Position numbers and translations under genes: made by a program. A stretch of DNA of 64,000 nt from Sulfurospirillum sp. 1612 (GTDB taxonomy: Bacteria; Campylobacterota; Campylobacteria; Campylobacterales; Sulfurospirillaceae), in contig NZ_CP140614.1 of the NCBI RefSeq assembly GCF_036556685.1, forward strand, positions 682,001-746,000, given 5' to 3'. The notes below the pieces were generated by a model. That model had not been told where the DNA came from and did no database searches. It worked only from the letters and a program-made list of their open reading frames with translations. This document shows positions 4,844-31,788 of this stretch, one piece after another (position 1 is the stretch's first letter; each line of letters opens with the position of its first letter).

Positions 4844-6694
4844 TTATGCTACCACCACTTTTCTGAACATTCCTGCCATGTGGTACAATAGATGACAATG
4901 ATACGCCCAAGAACCCATAGCATCAACAGTGACTTGTACGCTTATCTTTGAGCCAGGTTGAACGATAACCGTGTGTTTCCTAACAAACTGATTCGCTCCA
5001 CTTTCCACATCTTGCCACATACCGTGCAAGTGCATAGGATGATTCATCATGGTATCGTTGATATATGTGATCCTGAGTCTCTCGCCATAGTGAAATTTCA
5101 ATGGCTTAGCATCTGGATATGCAATGCCGTTTATAGACCACATGTAGCGCTCCATATTACCGGTTAGATGCAATATAATCTCTCGATCGGGCTGTTTATC
5201 ATGCATCGTAGATCTTAGAGATTTGAGATTGGAGTACCTTAAGACCTCTCTTCCATTATTTCTGAGTCCAACACCCGGATCATCAAGTCGATATTGAGGG
5301 TTCGCAGCTTTCATCGTGCTTTGTGGACCATCTGCGTGTTCTAGCGGAGTGATAGGTATTGTTTTATCCATTGAAGAAGACGACATGTTGGTCATAAAAG
5401 ATTTTTTGTTCATATCCATATTCATAGACTTCTTCTTGTTCTCTGTAGGCATATTATCCATTTTCATGTTAGCCATAGGAGTTTTTTTGTTCATATCCAT
5501 AGGCTTTTTGTCATTTTTCACGGCCATATTGTCCATCTTCATGCCACCCATGTTCATCTTGCTCATGTCCATCCCCATATCCGTCATACTGAGTATCGGC
5601 AAAGGATCCATTTTTGGAATAGATGCTGCTATATTCTCATCATAGGTTAAAGAACCAATGGCATAACCTGTTCTATCAAGACTTTGTGCAAAGATAGCGT
5701 ATGCTTTGTTTTCCAAAGGTTCCACTATTACATCGTAAGTTTCAGCTACTCCGATTCTAAACTCTTCTATATCAACAGGGTGTATGTTGTTCCCATCGGC
5801 GGCAACAACTCTCATCTTTAAGCCAGGAATCCTTACATCAAAAAAAGTCATAGCAGAACTGTTGATAAATCGAAGACGGACTTTTTGTCCTCTTTTAAAT
5901 AGAGCTTTCCAATTTGTTGCAGGGTTATCACCGTTCATAAGATAAGTATAAGTATATCCTGTCACATCAGAAAGATCTCTATCTCCCATATCCATCTCAT
6001 TCCACATCTTTCTTTTGTTAAAAGCATTTATGAAACCATCTTTTTTTATTTCATCTATAAAATCTCCAATAGTTCTTTGTTTGATGTTATAATAGTTTCC
6101 TGCGACTTTTAGTTTTCTATAGATGCTTTTAGGGTTTTCATCACTCCAATCAGAAAGTGCCACAACATAATCAACATCATAGTCATATGGATCTTTCACC
6201 TTTGGCTCGATAATGATTGAACCATGAACTCCTGTTTGTTCTTGAAAGCCTGAATGACTGTGATACCAGTAAGTTCCGCTTTGTTTAACCGTGAATTTAT
6301 AAGTAAAAGTTTCTCCTGGCTTGATACCCTCAAAACTTATACCCGGAACTCCATCCATATCGGTAGGGATAATGATTCCATGCCAGTGGATAGAAGAATC
6401 CTCTCTGAGATTATTTGTCACATTAATCGTGATATCATCACCTTCTTTCCATATAAGTGTTGGCGCGTGAAGTTTTCCATTGATTGTTGTAGCAATTGTT
6501 GGTGTTCCTGTGATATCAACAGCACTATATCCGATGCTTAAGTTAAATACTTTGCCAGATAAAATATCTCCTTTTTCAAACTCTTTTTGTACCTCTTTTG
6601 CATTAAGGTTGATACGGGTTGAGGCGAGAACAGAGGCAACAGCTAAACCTTTGACAAAAACTCTCCGTGAGATTTGATTTTTAGTTGTGCTCAT
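4844..6694 (-). CDS. copA: CopA-type multicopper oxidase (periplasmic, Tat-exported)
   Basis: 616 residues. A twin-arginine signal (SRRVFVKG, residues 9-16) exports the folded enzyme. Three cupredoxin domains follow, with the copper ligand motifs HWHG (103-106), WYHSHSGFQ (143-151), HPMHLHGMW (552-560) and AYHCHLLYHMAGMF (597-610), which together give the type 1, 2 and 3 copper sites. Residues about 368-436 are a Met-rich insert (repeats at 5387-5542) that probably binds Cu(I). The enzyme oxidises Cu(I) to less toxic Cu(II). It overlaps the upstream small gene by 14 bases and has a good AAGGAAA box. Confidence 0.95.
   Translation of the reverse strand: MSTTKNQISRRVFVKGLAVASVLASTRINLNAKEVQKEFEKGDILSGKVFNLSIGYSAVDITGTPTIATTINGKLHAPTLIWKEGDDITINVTNNLREDSSIHWHGIIIPTDMDGVPGISFEGIKPGETFTYKFTVKQSGTYWYHSHSGFQEQTGVHGSIIIEPKVKDPYDYDVDYVVALSDWSDENPKSIYRKLKVAGNYYNIKQRTIGDFIDEIKKDGFINAFNKRKMWNEMDMGDRDLSDVTGYTYTYLMNGDNPATNWKALFKRGQKVRLRFINSSAMTFFDVRIPGLKMRVVAADGNNIHPVDIEEFRIGVAETYDVIVEPLENKAYAIFAQSLDRTGYAIGSLTYDENIAASIPKMDPLPILSMTDMGMDMSKMNMGGMKMDNMAVKNDKKPMDMNKKTPMANMKMDNMPTENKKKSMNMDMNKKSFMTNMSSSSMDKTIPITPLEHADGPQSTMKAANPQYRLDDPGVGLRNNGREVLRYSNLKSLRSTMHDKQPDREIILHLTGNMERYMWSINGIAYPDAKPLKFHYGERLRITYINDTMMNHPMHLHGMWQDVESGANQFVRKHTVIVQPGSKISVQVTVDAMGSWAYHCHLLYHMAGMFRKVVVA
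5387..5542 (-). repeat. Two tandem Met-rich repeats inside copA
   Basis: CopA residues 385-409 and 410-436 are a degenerate tandem duplication. Both start MKMDNM and share a Lys-rich middle, MDMNKK and a closing Met-Ala/Thr-Asn. Each unit carries at least six methionines, which suggests Cu(I)-binding repeats that can expand or contract. Confidence 0.75.
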
Positions 6695-7062: not shown

Positions 7063-7743
7063 TTATTTATGTTTTTTTGAAGGTTGAGGTTTTTTAATGA
7101 TAGCAAATTTTTGAGGTTGGATAGTTATATCTGTGACTACATAAGGTGCGTGAATGATTTCAACGATTTGAGTCGCTAAGTCATCAGGATCAATCACGGT
7201 CTCTTTTTGTTTCGTGGGCTCAAAGGCTAATGTGTCAAAAAAGGGAGTTTGCGTAAGGTCGGGGTTGATATTGGTGACTCTAACTTTGGCATTTCGCAAC
7301 TCTTCAAACAGACAGAGACTAAAACTTCTCAACCCTGCTTTGGTTGCAGAGTAGAGGGCTGAGAATTTGGAGTGTTTGGTTGCTTCAATAGAGGCGACAT
7401 TGATGATGTGCCCTTGTGTTTTTTTGAGACTTCTAAGGCAAAGATTTGCAAGGAGAATCGGAGCTTTTAAATTGGTGTCAATCAACGTCTCTATTTTTTG
7501 GAGCGAGAGTTCTTCATGCGGTCTAAAAATTCCTAATCCGGCACAATTGACAAGAAGGTGTATCTCATGCGTTTTCAAGATTTTTGTTATATGATGCTCT
7601 AAGGCTTTCGTGTCTGTGATATCGCAAAAAATCTCCGGTCCTCTGCGACTGAGACCCAAAACATCGTAACCTTCATTTTTTAATTGATGGCTTATGGCTT
7701 TGCCGATGCCGCTACTCGCACCCGTCACAATCGCTGTTTTCAT
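7063..7743 (-). CDS. Short-chain dehydrogenase/reductase, substrate unknown
   Basis: 226-residue Rossmann-fold oxidoreductase of the classical SDR family. It shows the dinucleotide motif TGASSGIG (7-14), the NCAG structural motif, and the catalytic serine followed by Tyr and Lys in YSATK. Arg at the end of strand 2 (LSRRG) suggests NADPH preference. Start 7743 is spaced nine bases from GGAG; the earlier ATG at 7749 lies too close. It stands alone, facing the TerB-like gene, with an extended -10 (TGTATAAT) near 7780-7787. The substrate cannot be told from sequence. Confidence 0.85.
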   Translation of the reverse strand: MKTAIVTGASSGIGKAISHQLKNEGYDVLGLSRRGPEIFCDITDTKALEHHITKILKTHEIHLLVNCAGLGIFRPHEELSLQKIETLIDTNLKAPILLANLCLRSLKKTQGHIINVASIEATKHSKFSALYSATKAGLRSFSLCLFEELRNAKVRVTNINPDLTQTPFFDTLAFEPTKQKETVIDPDDLATQIVEIIHAPYVVTDITIQPQKFAIIKKPQPSKKHK

Positions 7744-7858
7744 ATCCATTTTCTCCGATTTAATTCAAATTTATGAATAATTATACAATAATGTTAAACA
7801 AACATTTACTTATTTTGAATATACTTGAAATATAAATTAATTGAACGAGGGTGGTTTA

Positions 7859-8260
7859 ATGTTTTTGATGGAATTAGAATCGATAGAAAAGTTTGCATTT
7901 TTAAAAATCGCAAATTATTTAGCAAAATTAGATGGAATATTTGCAAAAAATGAAAAAGAGATTATCAAAGAGTACTGCTTGGAGATGGGAATCGATAATA
8001 TCGATTTTGATGAGGAGTCCTTTAATCTAGCAGAAACACTAAAAACATTTCGTTCCAAGAAAAGTCAAAAGATTTTGTTACTTGAATTGATGATTTTAGT
8101 GCATGCAGATGATGAGTTTCAGTTTATAGAAAAAGAGTTGATTTCAAAAATCTCAACTTTTTTTGATATGAATGATGACGAAGTCAAACGATCATCGACT
8201 TGGGGCAAATCCATAGCCTCACTGAGACATCAAGCACTCGATTTTATCGCGCGAGCTTAG
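7859..8260 (+). CDS. TerB-like helical protein
   Basis: 133 residues, all-alpha by appearance. Two acidic patches, LAKLDGIFAKNEKE near the start and HADDEFQFIEKE in the middle, resemble the paired Asp/Glu metal sites of TerB-like (tellurite resistance and J-domain-linked) domains. No signal peptide or membrane segment. Start ATG 7859 follows GAGGGTGG; the frame's opening at 7841 is a TTG. It converges on the SPL-like gene with a 17-base overlap. The function is unknown; assignment to the TerB superfamily is by pattern only. Confidence 0.65.
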   Translation: MFLMELESIEKFAFLKIANYLAKLDGIFAKNEKEIIKEYCLEMGIDNIDFDEESFNLAETLKTFRSKKSQKILLLELMILVHADDEFQFIEKELISKISTFFDMNDDEVKRSSTWGKSIASLRHQALDFIARA

Positions 8261-9494
8261 CTACTTTATTATTATAAGAGGTGACCATATCGTGTTCCAT
8301 CTCGTCATTGCTCTCATATTCATAGCCAAAGACCGGCTTCCATAAGCTTTGGTCTTCCATGCACAAATAAAAATAGACTTTTTGGTGCCATGGCGCAAAA
8401 GCTTGATAAGCATTTTGAAACATTTCAAGTTTTGTCTCTAGGGGATAGGAAAATTTTCCGCTGGCATCAACTAGAGGCATCTGTAAAATTTTGCTTTTAA
8501 AATCTCGATTTCTCAGCTTTTTGATAACGGGTTTGATGAAGGTCAAGGTTCCAAAAGAGACCAAAGCGACTTCTTGATGGGAAAATTGTGACGTGATGGT
8601 TTCGATAGTTTCACGATACTCATTGAGGTAATTCTCATAGACGACAATCGGATGAAAATGAAATCCCACCAATACCCCTTTATCTGCAAGCGCACGTGCA
8701 CTTTTGATACGATTTTCCAATGACGCGCTGAGGTGTTCTTCGTTTTTTATAATTGTTGGCGTATTGATAGACCACGTACAGAGGATATTTTTGGGAACAT
8801 CATGATCCAAGAGGTATTTGATATTGTCAGATTTACTCTTGAATTCCAAAATGACATTAGGATTTTCTCTTGCAAAGTCAAACAGCGCGTCCATAATACC
8901 GGCTTTATTTCCCCAAAGCAGTGAATCAGAACTCTGTCCGGTACCAATGTGATAGTTTTTGTTGGGGTCGAGTTTGAGATTTTTCAATTTTTGTGCAAAA
9001 TTTTTGTCAAAACCAATTTTATTTTCATTATAAAAAGATTGAATCGAACAATACGAACAATCAAATCCACAACTCTCCACCGCATCTAAGGTCATGAGAT
9101 TGCAACATCGCGTTTTTGGGGAGGCCACAGGGCATGACCCTAGTCCAAGCTCTTCTTTCTCAAATTCTGCAAAATGGATTTTTCTGGAGAAATTATAAGG
9201 GGCTTCTTTTTCAAAATTTGCATAACTTTTTGGTTTGTTTTTAAGTGCTTCCCAAATCTGTTTGATATGGGCAAAGGCTTGTTTTCGGTTCTCTTTATCG
9301 GCCCAAATTTCATAAACACTCTTTTCATGCCACATTTCAAAATCAATACTCATATCCACCAATTGTTTCAACTCTTGAAAAGAAAACCGATAATGGTAGG
9401 CTTTGTGTCTTAAAAAATCTTGCGTTTTATCATCTAATCTTGTGAAGTGACAACGTTGACTATCTCGTTCAAATTTTTCTTTATAATTTTCCAT
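8244..9494 (-). CDS. Radical-SAM protein of the spore photoproduct lyase-like family
   Basis: 416 residues. The [4Fe-4S]/SAM motif is CGFDCSYC (Cys142, Cys146, Cys149), the CxxxCxxC spacing of radical SAM enzymes, followed by SIQSFY; a CCNL motif lies just before it (Cys130, Cys131). The architecture matches SPL-family proteins found in non-spore-formers. True SPL repairs the thymine dimer of spore DNA; this organism shows no sign of sporulation, so the substrate is unknown (DNA repair is one guess). The start overlaps the upstream nucleosidase gene by 61 bases, which indicates tight co-expression. Confidence 0.85.
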   Translation of the reverse strand: MENYKEKFERDSQRCHFTRLDDKTQDFLRHKAYHYRFSFQELKQLVDMSIDFEMWHEKSVYEIWADKENRKQAFAHIKQIWEALKNKPKSYANFEKEAPYNFSRKIHFAEFEKEELGLGSCPVASPKTRCCNLMTLDAVESCGFDCSYCSIQSFYNENKIGFDKNFAQKLKNLKLDPNKNYHIGTGQSSDSLLWGNKAGIMDALFDFARENPNVILEFKSKSDNIKYLLDHDVPKNILCTWSINTPTIIKNEEHLSASLENRIKSARALADKGVLVGFHFHPIVVYENYLNEYRETIETITSQFSHQEVALVSFGTLTFIKPVIKKLRNRDFKSKILQMPLVDASGKFSYPLETKLEMFQNAYQAFAPWHQKVYFYLCMEDQSLWKPVFGYEYESNDEMEHDMVTSYNNKVAKLAR

Positions 9495-9967
9495 ACAAAC
9501 TCTTTCTTTGGTATTGTGGTGTCTAAATAATCCGATACTACTTTAAGGATATAGATCTGATTGGAATTTAGATATTGTTGTGTGATTTCTAAAAAAGTAT
9601 CTGATTCCATATCGACAAGCATGCTGCGCACTTTAGTGGCGTCATCAATAGCACTCAGATGCGATGATAAAGAGGCTTTTTTGATAAAACCCAAATCATG
9701 ATTACTACAAAAAAGTGATCCAATGGGAACCTTGGTGTCACTACAGCCTGCAATACCTAGATTGATTGCTTTTTGAATTTTATAATGCTGAAATATTTCA
9801 TGCAAATGTTGCGTATTTTTTCTCCCCATCCCCAAGATTGCGATAATAATATCAGAATTGGCATAGATCTTATAAGGTTTTTTTTGGATACAAGGCAACT
9901 TAAAATACTCAATCAGCGCTCTCGCTTCGCACTCAAAGGCACTATGGATTAAAACTTTTTTAGACAT
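9434..9967 (-). CDS. Small nucleoside phosphorylase / MTA-SAH nucleosidase-like protein
   Basis: 177 residues, shorter than the roughly 230 of MtnN (a full-length mtnN also lies at 31063). Catalytic features of the family are kept: an early Glu in SAFECEA (Glu12), NLGIAGC in the purine site, MESD for ribose binding, and VSD carrying the catalytic Asp. It overlaps the SPL-like radical-SAM gene downstream. Because radical SAM enzymes release inhibitory 5'-deoxyadenosine, a partner that cleaves it is plausible, but that is inference. A TATAAT box ends only six bases before the ATG. Confidence 0.75.
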   Translation of the reverse strand: MSKKVLIHSAFECEARALIEYFKLPCIQKKPYKIYANSDIIIAILGMGRKNTQHLHEIFQHYKIQKAINLGIAGCSDTKVPIGSLFCSNHDLGFIKKASLSSHLSAIDDATKVRSMLVDMESDTFLEITQQYLNSNQIYILKVVSDYLDTTIPKKEFVWKIIKKNLNEIVNVVTSQD

Positions 9968-9979: not shown

Positions 9980-9988
9980 GCGATAATT

Positions 9989-9997
9989 TGATAAAAT
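9989..9997 (+). promoter_or_regulatory. Extended -10 promoter of the AMMECR1 gene
   Basis: TGATAAAAT, an extended -10 (TG-N-TAAAAT), 23 bases before the preferred start at 10021. Confidence 0.5.
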
Positions 9998-10020
9998 ATT
10001 TTAAAAACGAAAGGATGGCG

Positions 10021-10569
10021 ATGAAAGAGGCCGTGTTACGATTGGCAAGAGCAGCGATTGGCGAATCTTTGGAGGTCCCACAACATGTCAGTTTGGAAAC
10101 TTTGATAGCGGACAATCCCGCGCTCAAAGAAACAGGGGCTACCTTTGTGACGCTCACATATCAGGGTGAATTAAGAGGGTGTATCGGTTCCTTGGTCGCG
10201 TATCGACCCTTGTATGAAGATATTATCTACAATGCAAGAAGTGCCGCATTTAAAGATCCTCGATTTGAGCCATTGTGCCAGGAAGAGTTAGAAGATATTG
10301 TGATTGAAGTCTCCATCTTATCACAACCCCAACATCTTGAGTATCATGATGCAGATGACTTGAAGAAAAAAATCAAAAAAAATCATGATGGCGTAGTACT
10401 ACAATATGGTACGCATCATGCGACATTTCTCCCTCAGGTTTGGGAGCAATTGCCAACATTTGAGCTCTTCTTTTCATATTTATGCCAAAAGGCGGGTTTG
10501 GGGGCGGATTGTTTAGCCTCCCATCCTGAGATATCAGTCTATTCGGTACAAAAATACAAAGAATCATGA
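10021..10569 (+). CDS. AMMECR1-domain protein (AmmeMemoRadiSam protein A type)
   Basis: 182 residues covering one AMMECR1 domain, with the family's signature LRGCIGS (51-57, Cys54). In many bacteria this domain is encoded with a Memo-like protein and a radical SAM enzyme; neither partner is adjacent here, though a different radical-SAM gene lies just across the divergent promoter. The biochemical role is not settled. ATG 10021 is spaced six bases from GAAAGG; an ATG at 10015 directly abuts that box and the frame's opening at 9988 is a TTG. Confidence 0.85.
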   Translation: MKEAVLRLARAAIGESLEVPQHVSLETLIADNPALKETGATFVTLTYQGELRGCIGSLVAYRPLYEDIIYNARSAAFKDPRFEPLCQEELEDIVIEVSILSQPQHLEYHDADDLKKKIKKNHDGVVLQYGTHHATFLPQVWEQLPTFELFFSYLCQKAGLGADCLASHPEISVYSVQKYKES

Positions 10570-31062: not shown

Positions 31063-31788
31063 ATGAAAATCGCAATCATGGGTGCAATGATTGAAGAAAT
31101 TGACCCCTTTTTAGTTACTGATGGCGATGAGCCTCTGTTGCAATTTTTTAAAAAACACAATGAATGCCAATATGGTGGAAATCTGTATCATGAAGCGACT
31201 TTTAAAGGTCATGATATTATTTTAGCATACAGCAAGATTGGAAAAGTTAATGCCGCACTCAGTGCTTCTACTTTAATTGAAAAGTTTGGGGCAGAAATGG
31301 TTTTATTTAGCGGTGTTGCAGGAGCGGTGAATTCGGAGTTGAAAATCGGAGACTTGGTTGCAGCGACACAATTATGCCAACATGATTTGGATATCACTGC
31401 TTTTGGTCATCCTTATGGATATGTTCCTGAGGGGGCTGTCTATGTCGATGCTTCTGCAAAATTGCTTGCTATTGCGACTGAAGTGGCTGAGGAAAAAAAT
31501 ATCAATCTCAAACACGGTATTATAGCCACAGGAGACCAATTTATCGCAGATCATGAGAAAAAAGATTGGATCAAAAGTACCTTTAAGGCAGATGCTCTTG
31601 AGATGGAAGGTGCCGCAGTGGCAGTAGTGTGTGATGCCTGTAATGTACCATTTTTTATCATGAGATCGATTAGTGATGCCGCAGATTCTGATGCTGCCTT
31701 TGATTTTGATGAATTTTTAAAACACTCAGCACAAAGAAGTAGCCGTTTTATTATCTCAATGTTGGATAAAATTCTTGTCAAAGCTTAG
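31063..31788 (+). CDS. mtnN: MTA/SAH (and aminofutalosine) nucleosidase
   Basis: 241 residues. It cleaves adenine from 5'-methylthioadenosine and S-adenosylhomocysteine. Catalytic residues are in MIEEIDP (Glu near position 8), EMEGAAVA, and SDAAD (Asp). In Campylobacterota the same enzyme also cleaves 6-amino-6-deoxyfutalosine in the menaquinone pathway (MqnB role), as known for C. jejuni and H. pylori. It overlaps the TtcA-like gene by 14 bases. Confidence 0.94.
   Translation: MKIAIMGAMIEEIDPFLVTDGDEPLLQFFKKHNECQYGGNLYHEATFKGHDIILAYSKIGKVNAALSASTLIEKFGAEMVLFSGVAGAVNSELKIGDLVAATQLCQHDLDITAFGHPYGYVPEGAVYVDASAKLLAIATEVAEEKNINLKHGIIATGDQFIADHEKKDWIKSTFKADALEMEGAAVAVVCDACNVPFFIMRSISDAADSDAAFDFDEFLKHSAQRSSRFIISMLDKILVKA

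Follow-up and report, generated by a model that had tools for sequence, protein, structure and literature searches.

A small nucleosidase of the MTAN fold, a radical SAM enzyme resembling spore photoproduct lyase (SPL) and a short-chain dehydrogenase/reductase (SDR) constitute a three-gene unit in Sulfurospirillum sp. 1612 and in many other Campylobacterota. The unit was observed directly in its existence, co-inheritance, gene order, gene overlap and fusion, in the conservation of its residues and in the absence of the H-donor Cys of SPL. Its members travel together, the key Cys is absent, and the nucleosidase and the SPL-like enzyme are fused in Fusobacterium, so the trio is probably a metabolic pathway that has not been described before, and not a system for DNA repair. 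As a tentative proposal, the three enzymes may serve one dedicated pathway consisting of formation of a radical SAM adenosyl product, removal of adenine and reduction of a carbonyl.

The Gene Unit in the Window

The window, that is, the whole stretch of 64,000 nucleotides analysed, carries the features given in Table 1. The original prediction described a 177-residue nucleosidase gene overlapping an SPL-like gene by 61 bases, and both open reading frames (ORFs) were found on the minus strand where it had placed them. The SDR gene, which that prediction did not include, is also part of the unit and lies on the same strand, 494 bp downstream of the SPL-like gene. A second, full-length mtnN had been noted near position 31063; an MTAN match does start at 31066 and scores 289 bits with NF004079 (cut-off 169).

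Table 1. Positions of the unit and of its functional motifs in the window
Feature	Position	Strand	Basis
Small MTAN-fold nucleosidase, 177 aa	9434..9967	-	ORF; PF01048; AlphaFold model; homologues in 103/397 genomes
SPL-like radical SAM enzyme, type I, 416 aa	8244..9494	-	ORF; PF20903; model; type I in 79/397 genomes
Dedicated SDR, 228 aa, third unit member	7063..7749	-	PF00106; SDR clade
61-bp overlap between the end of the nucleosidase gene and the start of the SPL-like gene	9434..9494	-	ORF positions
CxxxCxxC [4Fe-4S] motif of SPL-like protein (C142, C146, C149)	9048..9071	-	Position computed from ORF
Q187 of SPL-like protein, where SPL has its H-donor Cys	8934..8936	-	Alignment to Geobacillus SPL and SplB
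D119-M120-E121, ribose-binding motif of nucleosidase	9605..9613	-	D in 68/68; M and E in 62/68
S145-D146, general-acid motif of nucleosidase	9530..9535	-	68/68 sequences

Distribution and Gene Order

Among 397 genomes of the phylum, SPL-like genes are present in 95 (79 of type I and 16 of type II, never both types in one genome), the small nucleosidase in 103 and both in 93; ten of the 103 nucleosidase genomes are without an SPL-like gene. The dedicated SDR clade is found in 78 of the 397 genomes at 205 bits or more, and an SDR of this single clade accompanies 74 of the 93 genomes with both genes, the other 19 having none at the threshold used. Counted by genus, 32 of 68 have both genes, one has SPL only, five have the nucleosidase only and 30 have neither, and the corresponding numbers for 60 relatives are 35 with both, one with the nucleosidase only and 24 with neither. 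One genus (g1, n = 10) has both in eight genomes and neither in two, and another (g3, n = 17) both in five and neither in 12. The pairing exceeds chance, as it recurs throughout the phylum; the Fisher p for the co-occurrence is uncorrected for phylogeny. Occurrence beyond a few close strains had been set beforehand as a test, and the pair is present not only in these 32 genera but also in Fusobacterium and in a faecal record.

These counts use a nucleosidase threshold of E 3e-13 or better, under which 103 of the 141 genomes found at 1e-6 are retained. In most of the 38 that drop out, the match covers an N-terminal stretch of a frame of about 227-247 aa, which is a full-length MTAN; G246, whose partial match lies 712 bp from its SPL gene, is lost as well. 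Before the type II profile was applied, 88 SPL genomes were counted, 86 of them with the nucleosidase, and the profile added seven SPL genomes in the group f16.

An adjacent short nucleosidase had been expected beside the SPL-like genes of Campylobacterota, and it lies upstream on the same strand in all 40 linked pairs. The two genes overlap in 31 of the 40, with the identical 61-bp overlap in seven, although the ORF caller chooses the first possible start codon and short overlaps may be overstated. Three gene orders occur: nucleosidase-SPL-SDR, nucleosidase-SDR-SPL, and nucleosidase-SDR with the SPL-like gene elsewhere. The hosts include an Alviniconcha symbiont (L141), and some of them are deep-sea organisms; the hosts of these SPL-like genes are not known to sporulate.

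Outside the phylum, Fusobacterium vincentii encodes the nucleosidase and the SPL-like domain in a single 623-aa protein followed by the SDR, and the faecal record has nucleosidase, SPL and SDR in this order with overlapping genes. Viral spread was considered and rejected: neither the type I nor the type II profile found a relative when run against viral_contigs, and only two of 50,697 'phages' records contain homologues (MT835770.1 and MT835514.1), of which MT835770.1 also encodes a MatE transporter and a PF21688 protein and is probably bacterial in origin, not viral. Anti-phage defence was likewise rejected, as neither the three proteins of the window nor the fused Fusobacterium protein gave a PADLOC match.

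In eight of 12 loci of the Sulfurimonas type, genes for a GH3-amidase, an SSF symporter and AnmK follow downstream of the nucleosidase. These neighbours are confined to such loci among the groups compared and are thus taken as local, so that a role in peptidoglycan recycling was discarded. In Arcobacter-type loci, trmD-rplS are found upstream and are also taken as local.

The Small Nucleosidase

In Pfam, the small nucleosidase scores 22.8 bits with PF01048, just below the cut-off of 25.1, and has besides this one weak FTH match. Its AlphaFold model (pLDDT 95.5) has the MTAN fold; the closest solved structure is Chlamydia CT263 (Z 21.1, 168 residues aligned, 21% identity), MTANs have Z of about 18.5-20, and 1nc1, an MTAN with methylthiotubercidin, is among the structural neighbours. 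E14, which corresponds by order to MTAN Glu12, D119-M120-E121-S-D and V-S145-D146 are present, and the MTAN-fold protein with catalytic Glu, MESD and VSD read from the DNA letters is thus borne out by residues and by model. Among 68 nucleosidase sequences, the catalytic Glu is kept in 67, Met-Glu in 62, and Ser-Asp and the Asp of DME in all 68. Equivalence to MTAN residues was assigned by order, a weak HMM alignment and fold, and since hhalign with the MTAN of the same genome aligned only residues 16-89, the MTAN numbering of the C-terminal motif leans on these. In the MTAN mechanism, an acid Asp and a ribose Glu suit a purine ribonucleoside; retention of the former, and of the latter in most sequences, therefore fits such a substrate, e.g., a SAM-derived adenosyl group.

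The protein reaches none of the equivalogs of characterized relatives, that is, MtnN (NF004079, 14.1 bits vs cut-off 169), MqnB (TIGR03664, 24.4 vs 124.7) and HpnG (TIGR03468, 19 vs 187.1). It had been predicted not to be the housekeeping MTAN, and a full-length MTAN is indeed separately present in 58 of 60 relatives. Its dedication to the SPL-like enzyme, also predicted, agrees with its presence in 93 of 95 SPL genomes, with the Fusobacterium fusion and with the decay of MTAN catalytic residues in six of the seven Arcobacteraceae-type copies read from SPL-less genomes, the seventh being intact.

The SPL-Like Radical SAM Enzyme

With 50.4 bits, the 416-aa protein exceeds the PF20903 (SPL) cut-off of 27, but it scores only 62 bits with the SPL equivalog TIGR04070 (cut-off 400). 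The three Cys of CxxxCxxC are present in 93 of 93 SPL-like sequences. The nearest solved fold to its model (pLDDT 85.8) is SPL 4fhf (Z 22.1 over 257 residues), and the MqnE structure is only distant, with Z 13.0, equal to that of lipoyl synthase. The protein thus shares with SplB the superfamily, CxxxCxxC, the Tyr in CxYC and the closest solved fold; however, the window-type enzymes differ from SplB in lacking the H-donor Cys, in falling below the equivalog cut-off, in their clade and in their nucleosidase and SDR partners. In the SPL tree they form a clade apart from SplB, a placement based on few references with long branches and flagged by a tree warning. The splB gene of B. velezensis has splA upstream and a chemotaxis protein gene downstream, with no nucleosidase or SDR directly beside it.

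The H-donor Cys of SPL (C141 in B. subtilis, C140 in Geobacillus) aligns with Q187 of the window protein. In the alignment, all 11 type I sequences have Gln at this site and all 14 sequences of type II and its allies have Tyr; the references have Cys (SplB, Granulicella and Nostoc) or Glu (a Deinococcus 'SPL family' protein). Of the relay Tyr pair (Y97/Y99), the first member is retained in both sets (Y148 in type I). The second is Ser in type I, and among the 14 type II and allied sequences it is Tyr (12/14) or Phe (2/14). Judged by residues, the enzymes are not SP lyases, because the H-donor Cys is replaced by Gln or Tyr. The earlier assignment to the SPL family stands on PF20903 and CxxxCxxC, whereas SPL in the sense of a repair lyase is not supported. 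Each repair event comes with one 5'-dA in the C141A and Y99F mutants of B. subtilis SPL, and C141A is inactivating in vivo (PMC3742179). The type II enzyme, with Tyr at the Cys site and both relay Tyr mostly kept, may regenerate SAM.

The Short-Chain Dehydrogenase/Reductase

The SDR matches PF00106 (adh_short) with 129.8 bits (cut-off 26.6), and G10, G14, I15 and G16 (GxxxGIG), N93, S120, Y133 and K137 are invariant in 17 of 17 sequences; with this match, GxxxGIG and N-S-Y-K all present, it is by its sequence a classical SDR. Arg after β-2 gives SDRs a preference for NADPH, and Arg35, found there in 15 of the 17, suggests this cofactor.

Proposed Pathway and Alternative Explanations

In the tentative pathway, the SPL-like enzyme would cleave SAM once per turnover, and its product would keep the 5'-deoxyadenosyl group on a small-molecule acceptor. 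The nucleosidase, with an MTAN active site and a shortened middle region, would hydrolyse the N-glycosidic bond to give adenine, and the SDR, probably NADPH-dependent, would reduce the carbonyl, i.e., the C1 aldehyde of the opened sugar. The presumed substrate and step order follow the logic of HpnH/HpnG and MqnE/MqnB.

HpnH, the adenosylhopane synthase, and HpnG, a putative phosphorylase that removes adenine, are likewise a radical SAM enzyme and a PNP-superfamily enzyme, often with hpnA, and HpnA has an SDR-type fold; the window enzyme, however, belongs to another radical SAM subfamily by its Pfam and NCBIfam matches. According to PMC12583986, 6 of 48 hpnH genomes have no hpnA ('sugar epimerase'), and which enzyme converts ribosylhopane to bacteriohopanetetrol is not settled. 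A hopanoid side-chain role was rejected on the squalene-hopene cyclase family PF13243, which has no match in the genome of origin (completeness 100; control positive in 2/14). MqnE carries out radical SAM adenosyl transfer, after which depurination of the MTAN type follows. MqnE and the aminodeoxyfutalosine nucleosidase MTAN belong to one pathway (PMC13280913). Among the annotated neighbour clusters of the unit, there are no Mqn genes, and no set of biosynthesis genes is prominent in the neighbour counts of their annotated part, which counts against the pathway. Against adenosyl transfer, SPL is known for H-atom abstraction and not for adenosyl addition, and the MqnE structure is a distant neighbour only; the genomes having the pair without the SDR, the ten nucleosidase genomes without SPL, with one intact copy among the seven read there, and the possible SAM regeneration by type II also count against the pathway.

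An unlikely explanation, though one with several facts in its favor, is that the SPL-like enzyme frees inhibitory 5'-deoxyadenosine (5'-dAdo) at each turnover and the nucleosidase removes it, the SDR acting on another product or on 5-deoxyribose. Type I lacks the Cys and the second Tyr as do, singly, the mutants with one 5'-dA per repair, radical SAM enzymes are inhibited by 5'-dAdo (PMC8102628), and fusion and overlap suit local removal. However, nearly all relatives already have a full-length MTAN, the SDR is left unexplained and the possible Tyr relay is kept in type II. In addition, other radical SAM enzymes presumably do without a dedicated nucleosidase. MTANs themselves cleave 5'-dAdo. 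Dedicated by-product removal was the original prediction; its dedication and the type I residues hold, but with the SDR as third enzyme a pathway is indicated, and 5'-dAdo clean-up on its own has ceased to be the simplest explanation.

Nucleoside salvage or breakdown is rather improbable. Here the nucleosidase would begin by cleaving a modified nucleoside, and the base set free would pass to the radical enzyme and the SDR, in the manner of QueK/QueL with queuosine in Clostridioides difficile. That system also combines a nucleosidase with a radical SAM lyase, and the nucleosidase is the upstream gene in every linked pair here. QueK, however, is of IPR023186, presumably the IunH family, unlike the window nucleosidase with its PF01048 and weak FTH matches, and an N7-acid Asp is useless on a 7-deazapurine. 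The available text of the reports on QueK, an IPR023186 nucleosidase, and QueL in queuosine salvage (PMC11130926, PMC11570991) mentions no SDR with them. Queuosine salvage itself was rejected on the distribution of QueC (E < 1e-50), which is independent of the pair: 55 of 60 relatives have it, so most do not need salvage, and of the five without it two (G016 and G036) carry the pair.

Repair of UV or other DNA dimers, to which the SPL name, PF20903 and the closest solved fold point and as which a Nautilia SPL-like gene was read in 2009 (PMC2628731), is very improbable and was rejected on the missing H-donor Cys, whose loss kills SPL function in vivo, although the Deinococcus protein among the three 'SPL family' references is without it too; the low TIGR04070 score, the absence of such partners beside splB, the lack of an evident place for a ribonucleosidase and an SDR in direct reversal and the improbability of UV for deep-sea hosts such as the Alviniconcha symbiont add to this.

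Significance

An SPL-like gene of this type in Nautilia has been taken for a DNA-repair adaptation to hydrothermal vents (PMC2628731). By the present evidence, such genes form the core of a small, sharply defined three-enzyme unit with a record of fusion and co-loss, so the substrate can be sought directly. It is conceivable, if somewhat doubtful, that the unit joins MqnE and HpnH as a third case in which a nucleosidase depurinates the product of radical adenosyl transfer, here on an SPL fold whose H-donor Cys has been replaced and with an SDR as the last enzyme, reducing the freed ribosyl aldehyde. Such a pathway would occur in at least one faecal bacterium as well as in Campylobacterota and Fusobacteriota, hidden under the name 'spore photoproduct lyase'. 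If clean-up is true, a radical SAM enzyme would have a 5'-dAdo nucleosidase of its own, in one case even fused to it; if adenosyl transfer is true, the unit would provide a new class of SAM-derived product and show the SPL fold carrying out new chemistry.

Genes of the Unit in the Window

The original prediction described a small MTA/SAH nucleosidase (MTAN)-fold gene and a spore photoproduct lyase (SPL)-like radical SAM gene with 61 bases in common, and reading of the ORFs bears this out and places both on the minus strand; the full-length MTAN that it reported is also present in the same genome, matched from window position 31066. The SPL-like protein scores 50.4 bits with PF20903 (cut-off 27) and 62 bits with the SPL equivalog TIGR04070, far below its cut-off of 400, and the nucleosidase scores 22.8 bits with PF01048, under the cut-off of 25.1.

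Genes of the unit and neighbouring genes in the window
Feature	Position	Strand	Basis or remark
Nucleosidase ORF, 177 aa	9434-9967	-	ORF reading
SPL-like radical SAM ORF, 416 aa	8244-9494	-	ORF reading, PF20903
Short-chain dehydrogenase/reductase (SDR) gene	7063-7749	-	Third member of the unit
TerB-like gene	7841-8260	+	PF05099, 28.2 bits; between SPL-like gene and SDR
AmmeMemoRadiSam protein A	9988-10569	+	TIGR04335, 200.5 bits
Multicopper-oxidase-like protein, long Met-rich insert	4844-6694	-	Translation reading only

In relatives of genus g1 (L066, L068) the SDR and SPL-like genes share 4 bp; in the window the TerB-like gene intervenes. The AmmeMemoRadiSam protein A gene diverges from the nucleosidase gene, the starts being 20 bp apart; the AmmeMemoRadiSam system is known to include a radical SAM enzyme of its own. 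The multicopper-oxidase-like protein is perhaps involved in copper handling.

Co-Occurrence and Gene Order

The nucleosidase/SPL-like pair is real and widespread. Of 60 relatives, 36 carry the nucleosidase and 35 the SPL-like protein (five of the latter only as distant matches, E 1e-12 to 1e-18): 35 have both, G040 has the nucleosidase only and 24 have neither. Both genes are found in 8/10 genomes of genus g1 (neither in 2/10) and in 5/17 of genus g3 (neither in 12/17). In a wider sample of 397 genomes drawn from the phylum (nucleosidase threshold, E 3e-13 or better), the nucleosidase is found in 103 and the SPL-like protein as two subtypes, type I, that of the window, in 79 and type II in 16, never together in one genome; both genes are present in 93, including all 16 type II genomes. 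The SPL-like gene occurs without the nucleosidase in G246, where a partial nucleosidase match adjoins it, and in G384, and the nucleosidase without the SPL-like gene in 10 genomes. Nine of the 10 belong to family f9, identified as the Arcobacter group from synteny with named loci. At the genus level (n = 68), 32 have both, one the SPL-like gene only, five the nucleosidase only and 30 neither. Fisher values are 3e-76 (genomes) and 5e-13 (genera), both ignoring phylogeny.

Both genes lie in 40 of the 120 loci sampled for gene order (L063-L182), and in every case (40/40) the nucleosidase precedes the SPL-like gene on a shared strand. The two overlap in 31 of the 40; with the first possible start codon taken, the overlap ranges from 4 to 71 bp and measures 61 bp in seven loci. 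The nucleosidase is absent from the stretch examined at the 51 Sulfurimonas-type loci; despite this, genomes of f17 g21 have both genes. In addition, at 8/12 of the Sulfurimonas-type loci L163-L174, genes for a GH3-amidase, an SSF symporter and AnmK are found downstream of the unlinked nucleosidase. In two genomes (G021:C175:4840-5448 and G023:C74:10967-11566) the small nucleosidase has a further MTAN-like paralogue, matched at E 1e-30 to 1e-31, as its divergent neighbour.

The Small Nucleosidase

The AlphaFold model (pLDDT 95.5) has the MTAN fold, its best structural match being Chlamydia CT263 (4qar; Z 21.1, rmsd 2.4, 168 aligned, 21% identity), with MTANs next at Z about 18.5-20. The Foldseek alignments with MTANs span about 230 columns against 177 residues in the model, so some 50 MTAN residues are without counterpart. 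All 68 homologues compared have D119, K142, S145 and D146; E14 is kept in 67 and M120-E121 in 62, the six exceptions being SPL-less Arcobacter-type copies (L143, L144, L145, L147, L148 and L149) in which DKQA replaces DMEA and the glycine loop is changed, and a seventh SPL-less copy, L146, has an intact active site. Since six of seven such copies are altered, the active site mostly decays upon SPL loss. The six remain open frames despite the loss of Met-Glu and the glycine loop, and a new role of these six is possible.

In the MTAN mechanism, N7 is protonated by Asp while Glu contacts the hydroxyls of the ribose. A purine ribonucleoside is therefore the expected substrate, and a SAM-derived adenosyl group fits this. 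Another short PNP_UDP_1 gene (L002, G000:C1:56120-56584, 186 aa) has Asn at the position of the MTAN acid Asp and is flanked by RlmN-like and HisF-like ORFs, named from translations; short frames like it are present in many relatives.

The SPL-Like Enzyme

The closest fold to the SPL-like model is SPL (4fhf; Z 22.1, 257 aligned, 18% identity), followed by MqnE (Z 13.0), level with lipoyl synthase, and the Fe-S motif loop of the model is of low confidence (pLDDT under 50 at 143-148). The catalytic Cys of Geobacillus SPL aligns with Q187 of the window protein. In a tree whose references are SplB of B. velezensis and the "SPL family" proteins of Granulicella, Nostoc and Deinococcus, and in which the Sulfurimonas type has a single row, nucleosidase-linked proteins form a separate group (100/99; midpoint root, long branches). 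At the Cys site they have Gln (type I, 11/11) or Tyr (type II, Fusobacterium and faecal sequences, 14/14). SplB, Granulicella and Nostoc have Cys; the Deinococcus reference has Glu, so Cys loss is not unique to the nucleosidase-linked group. Identity as SP lyase was rejected on sequence, as the catalytic Cys is absent.

The C141A mutant of B. subtilis SPL has no activity in vivo, and both it and the Y99F mutant spend one SAM on each turnover, the amount of 5'-dA equalling that of product (PMC3742179). Lacking both the Cys and the Tyr of the Y99 site, the type I enzyme should consume SAM stoichiometrically. This is weaker for type II and its allies, since they have Tyr at the Cys site and mostly keep Tyr at the Y99 site (Tyr in 12/14, Phe in 2/14).

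The SDR as Third Member

Neighbour counts revealed the SDR beside the pair. In a 38-row tree, 33 SDRs are separated from five others (100/100), and 20 of these have an SPL-like or nucleosidase gene no more than 150 bp away; the orders found are nucleosidase-SPL-SDR, nucleosidase-SDR-SPL and nucleosidase-SDR with SPL elsewhere. At 205 bits or more (next match, 137 bits), the SDR profile matches 78 of the 397 genomes, and 74 have all three genes. No SDR reaches this threshold in 19 genomes with SPL and nucleosidase (10 of f19, five of f16, three of f11 g64, and G062), and G040 and G205 have the SDR without SPL, which counts against the SDR as a fixed partner. N93, S120, Y133 and K137 are invariant in 17/17 and Arg35 is present in 15/17, which by the residue rules for SDRs suggests NADPH as the cofactor.

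Homologues outside Campylobacterota

A tblastn search of 72,556 plasmid records matched one, Fusobacterium vincentii NZ_CP084075.1, in which a 623-aa ORF joins a nucleosidase domain (residues 1-167, 120 bits) to an SPL-like domain (273-616, 274 bits), with an SDR (256 bits) next. MT835770.1 (human faecal, labelled Bacteriophage sp.) has the nucleosidase, SPL-like and SDR genes in that order, each overlapping the next. MT835514.1 (faecal) has the SDR, a 160-aa ORF and the SPL-like gene, and a nucleosidase was not recognised in it; the 160-aa ORF (L186:13847-14329), at the expected place of the nucleosidase, matches neither Pfam nor the profiles and may encode a truncated descendant of the nucleosidase. 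A PF21688 FAD-dependent protein near the trio in both Fusobacterium (L183:10605-12188) and the faecal record MT835770.1 (L185:36-1232) is a possible fourth partner outside Campylobacterota. The Fusobacterium record NZ_CP084075.1 is classed as a plasmid although 2.1 Mb long, and the two "Bacteriophage sp." faecal records carry these metabolic genes; all three are probably misfiled.

Possible Pathways

The favoured reading, a tentative one, is a pathway in which the SPL-like enzyme would transfer the adenosyl group of SAM to a substrate, the nucleosidase would depurinate the adenosyl product and the SDR, with NADPH fitting, would perform a reduction. To our knowledge, radical SAM enzymes reported with their own PNP-type partner are those whose product retains the adenosyl group, and that group ends on the product in MqnE chemistry; because of this association, and because an SDR would fit an HpnH-like step, adenosyl transfer is preferred to clean-up of 5'-deoxyadenosine by the nucleosidase, which the original prediction had offered beside cleavage of a damaged nucleoside. 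Such clean-up would suit a type I enzyme consuming SAM stoichiometrically, but it is somewhat less likely, since full-length MTAN (E below 1e-49), a general nucleosidase accepting 5'-deoxyadenosine, is already at hand in 58 of the 60 relatives. Nucleoside salvage by the small nucleosidase is less likely still, because the conserved Asp/Glu pattern disfavours queuosine (7-deaza); QueK/QueL are reportedly the subject of Yuan et al. 2019. DNA repair by the SPL-like protein is highly improbable, with the catalytic Cys replaced by Gln or Tyr and nucleosidase residues that disfavour DNA deoxynucleosides.

A description of the trio was not found among the matches listed from titles and abstracts of open-licence literature. 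A paper on Nautilia profundicola (PMC2628731) notes that a gene related to spl has a short chain dehydrogenase nearby and reads the spl-related gene as vent DNA repair; the nucleosidase that it mentions is pfs. The radical SAM enzyme HpnH has a PNP-type partner, HpnG, and the adenosyl group ends on the product (PMC12583986); MqnE with MTAN or MqnB shows the same pairing (PMC13280913). Ribosylhopane is what remains after the HpnH route, and no enzyme is established for turning it into bacteriohopanetetrol (PMC12583986); in the adenosyl transfer pathway favoured here an NADPH-dependent SDR would fit such a step.
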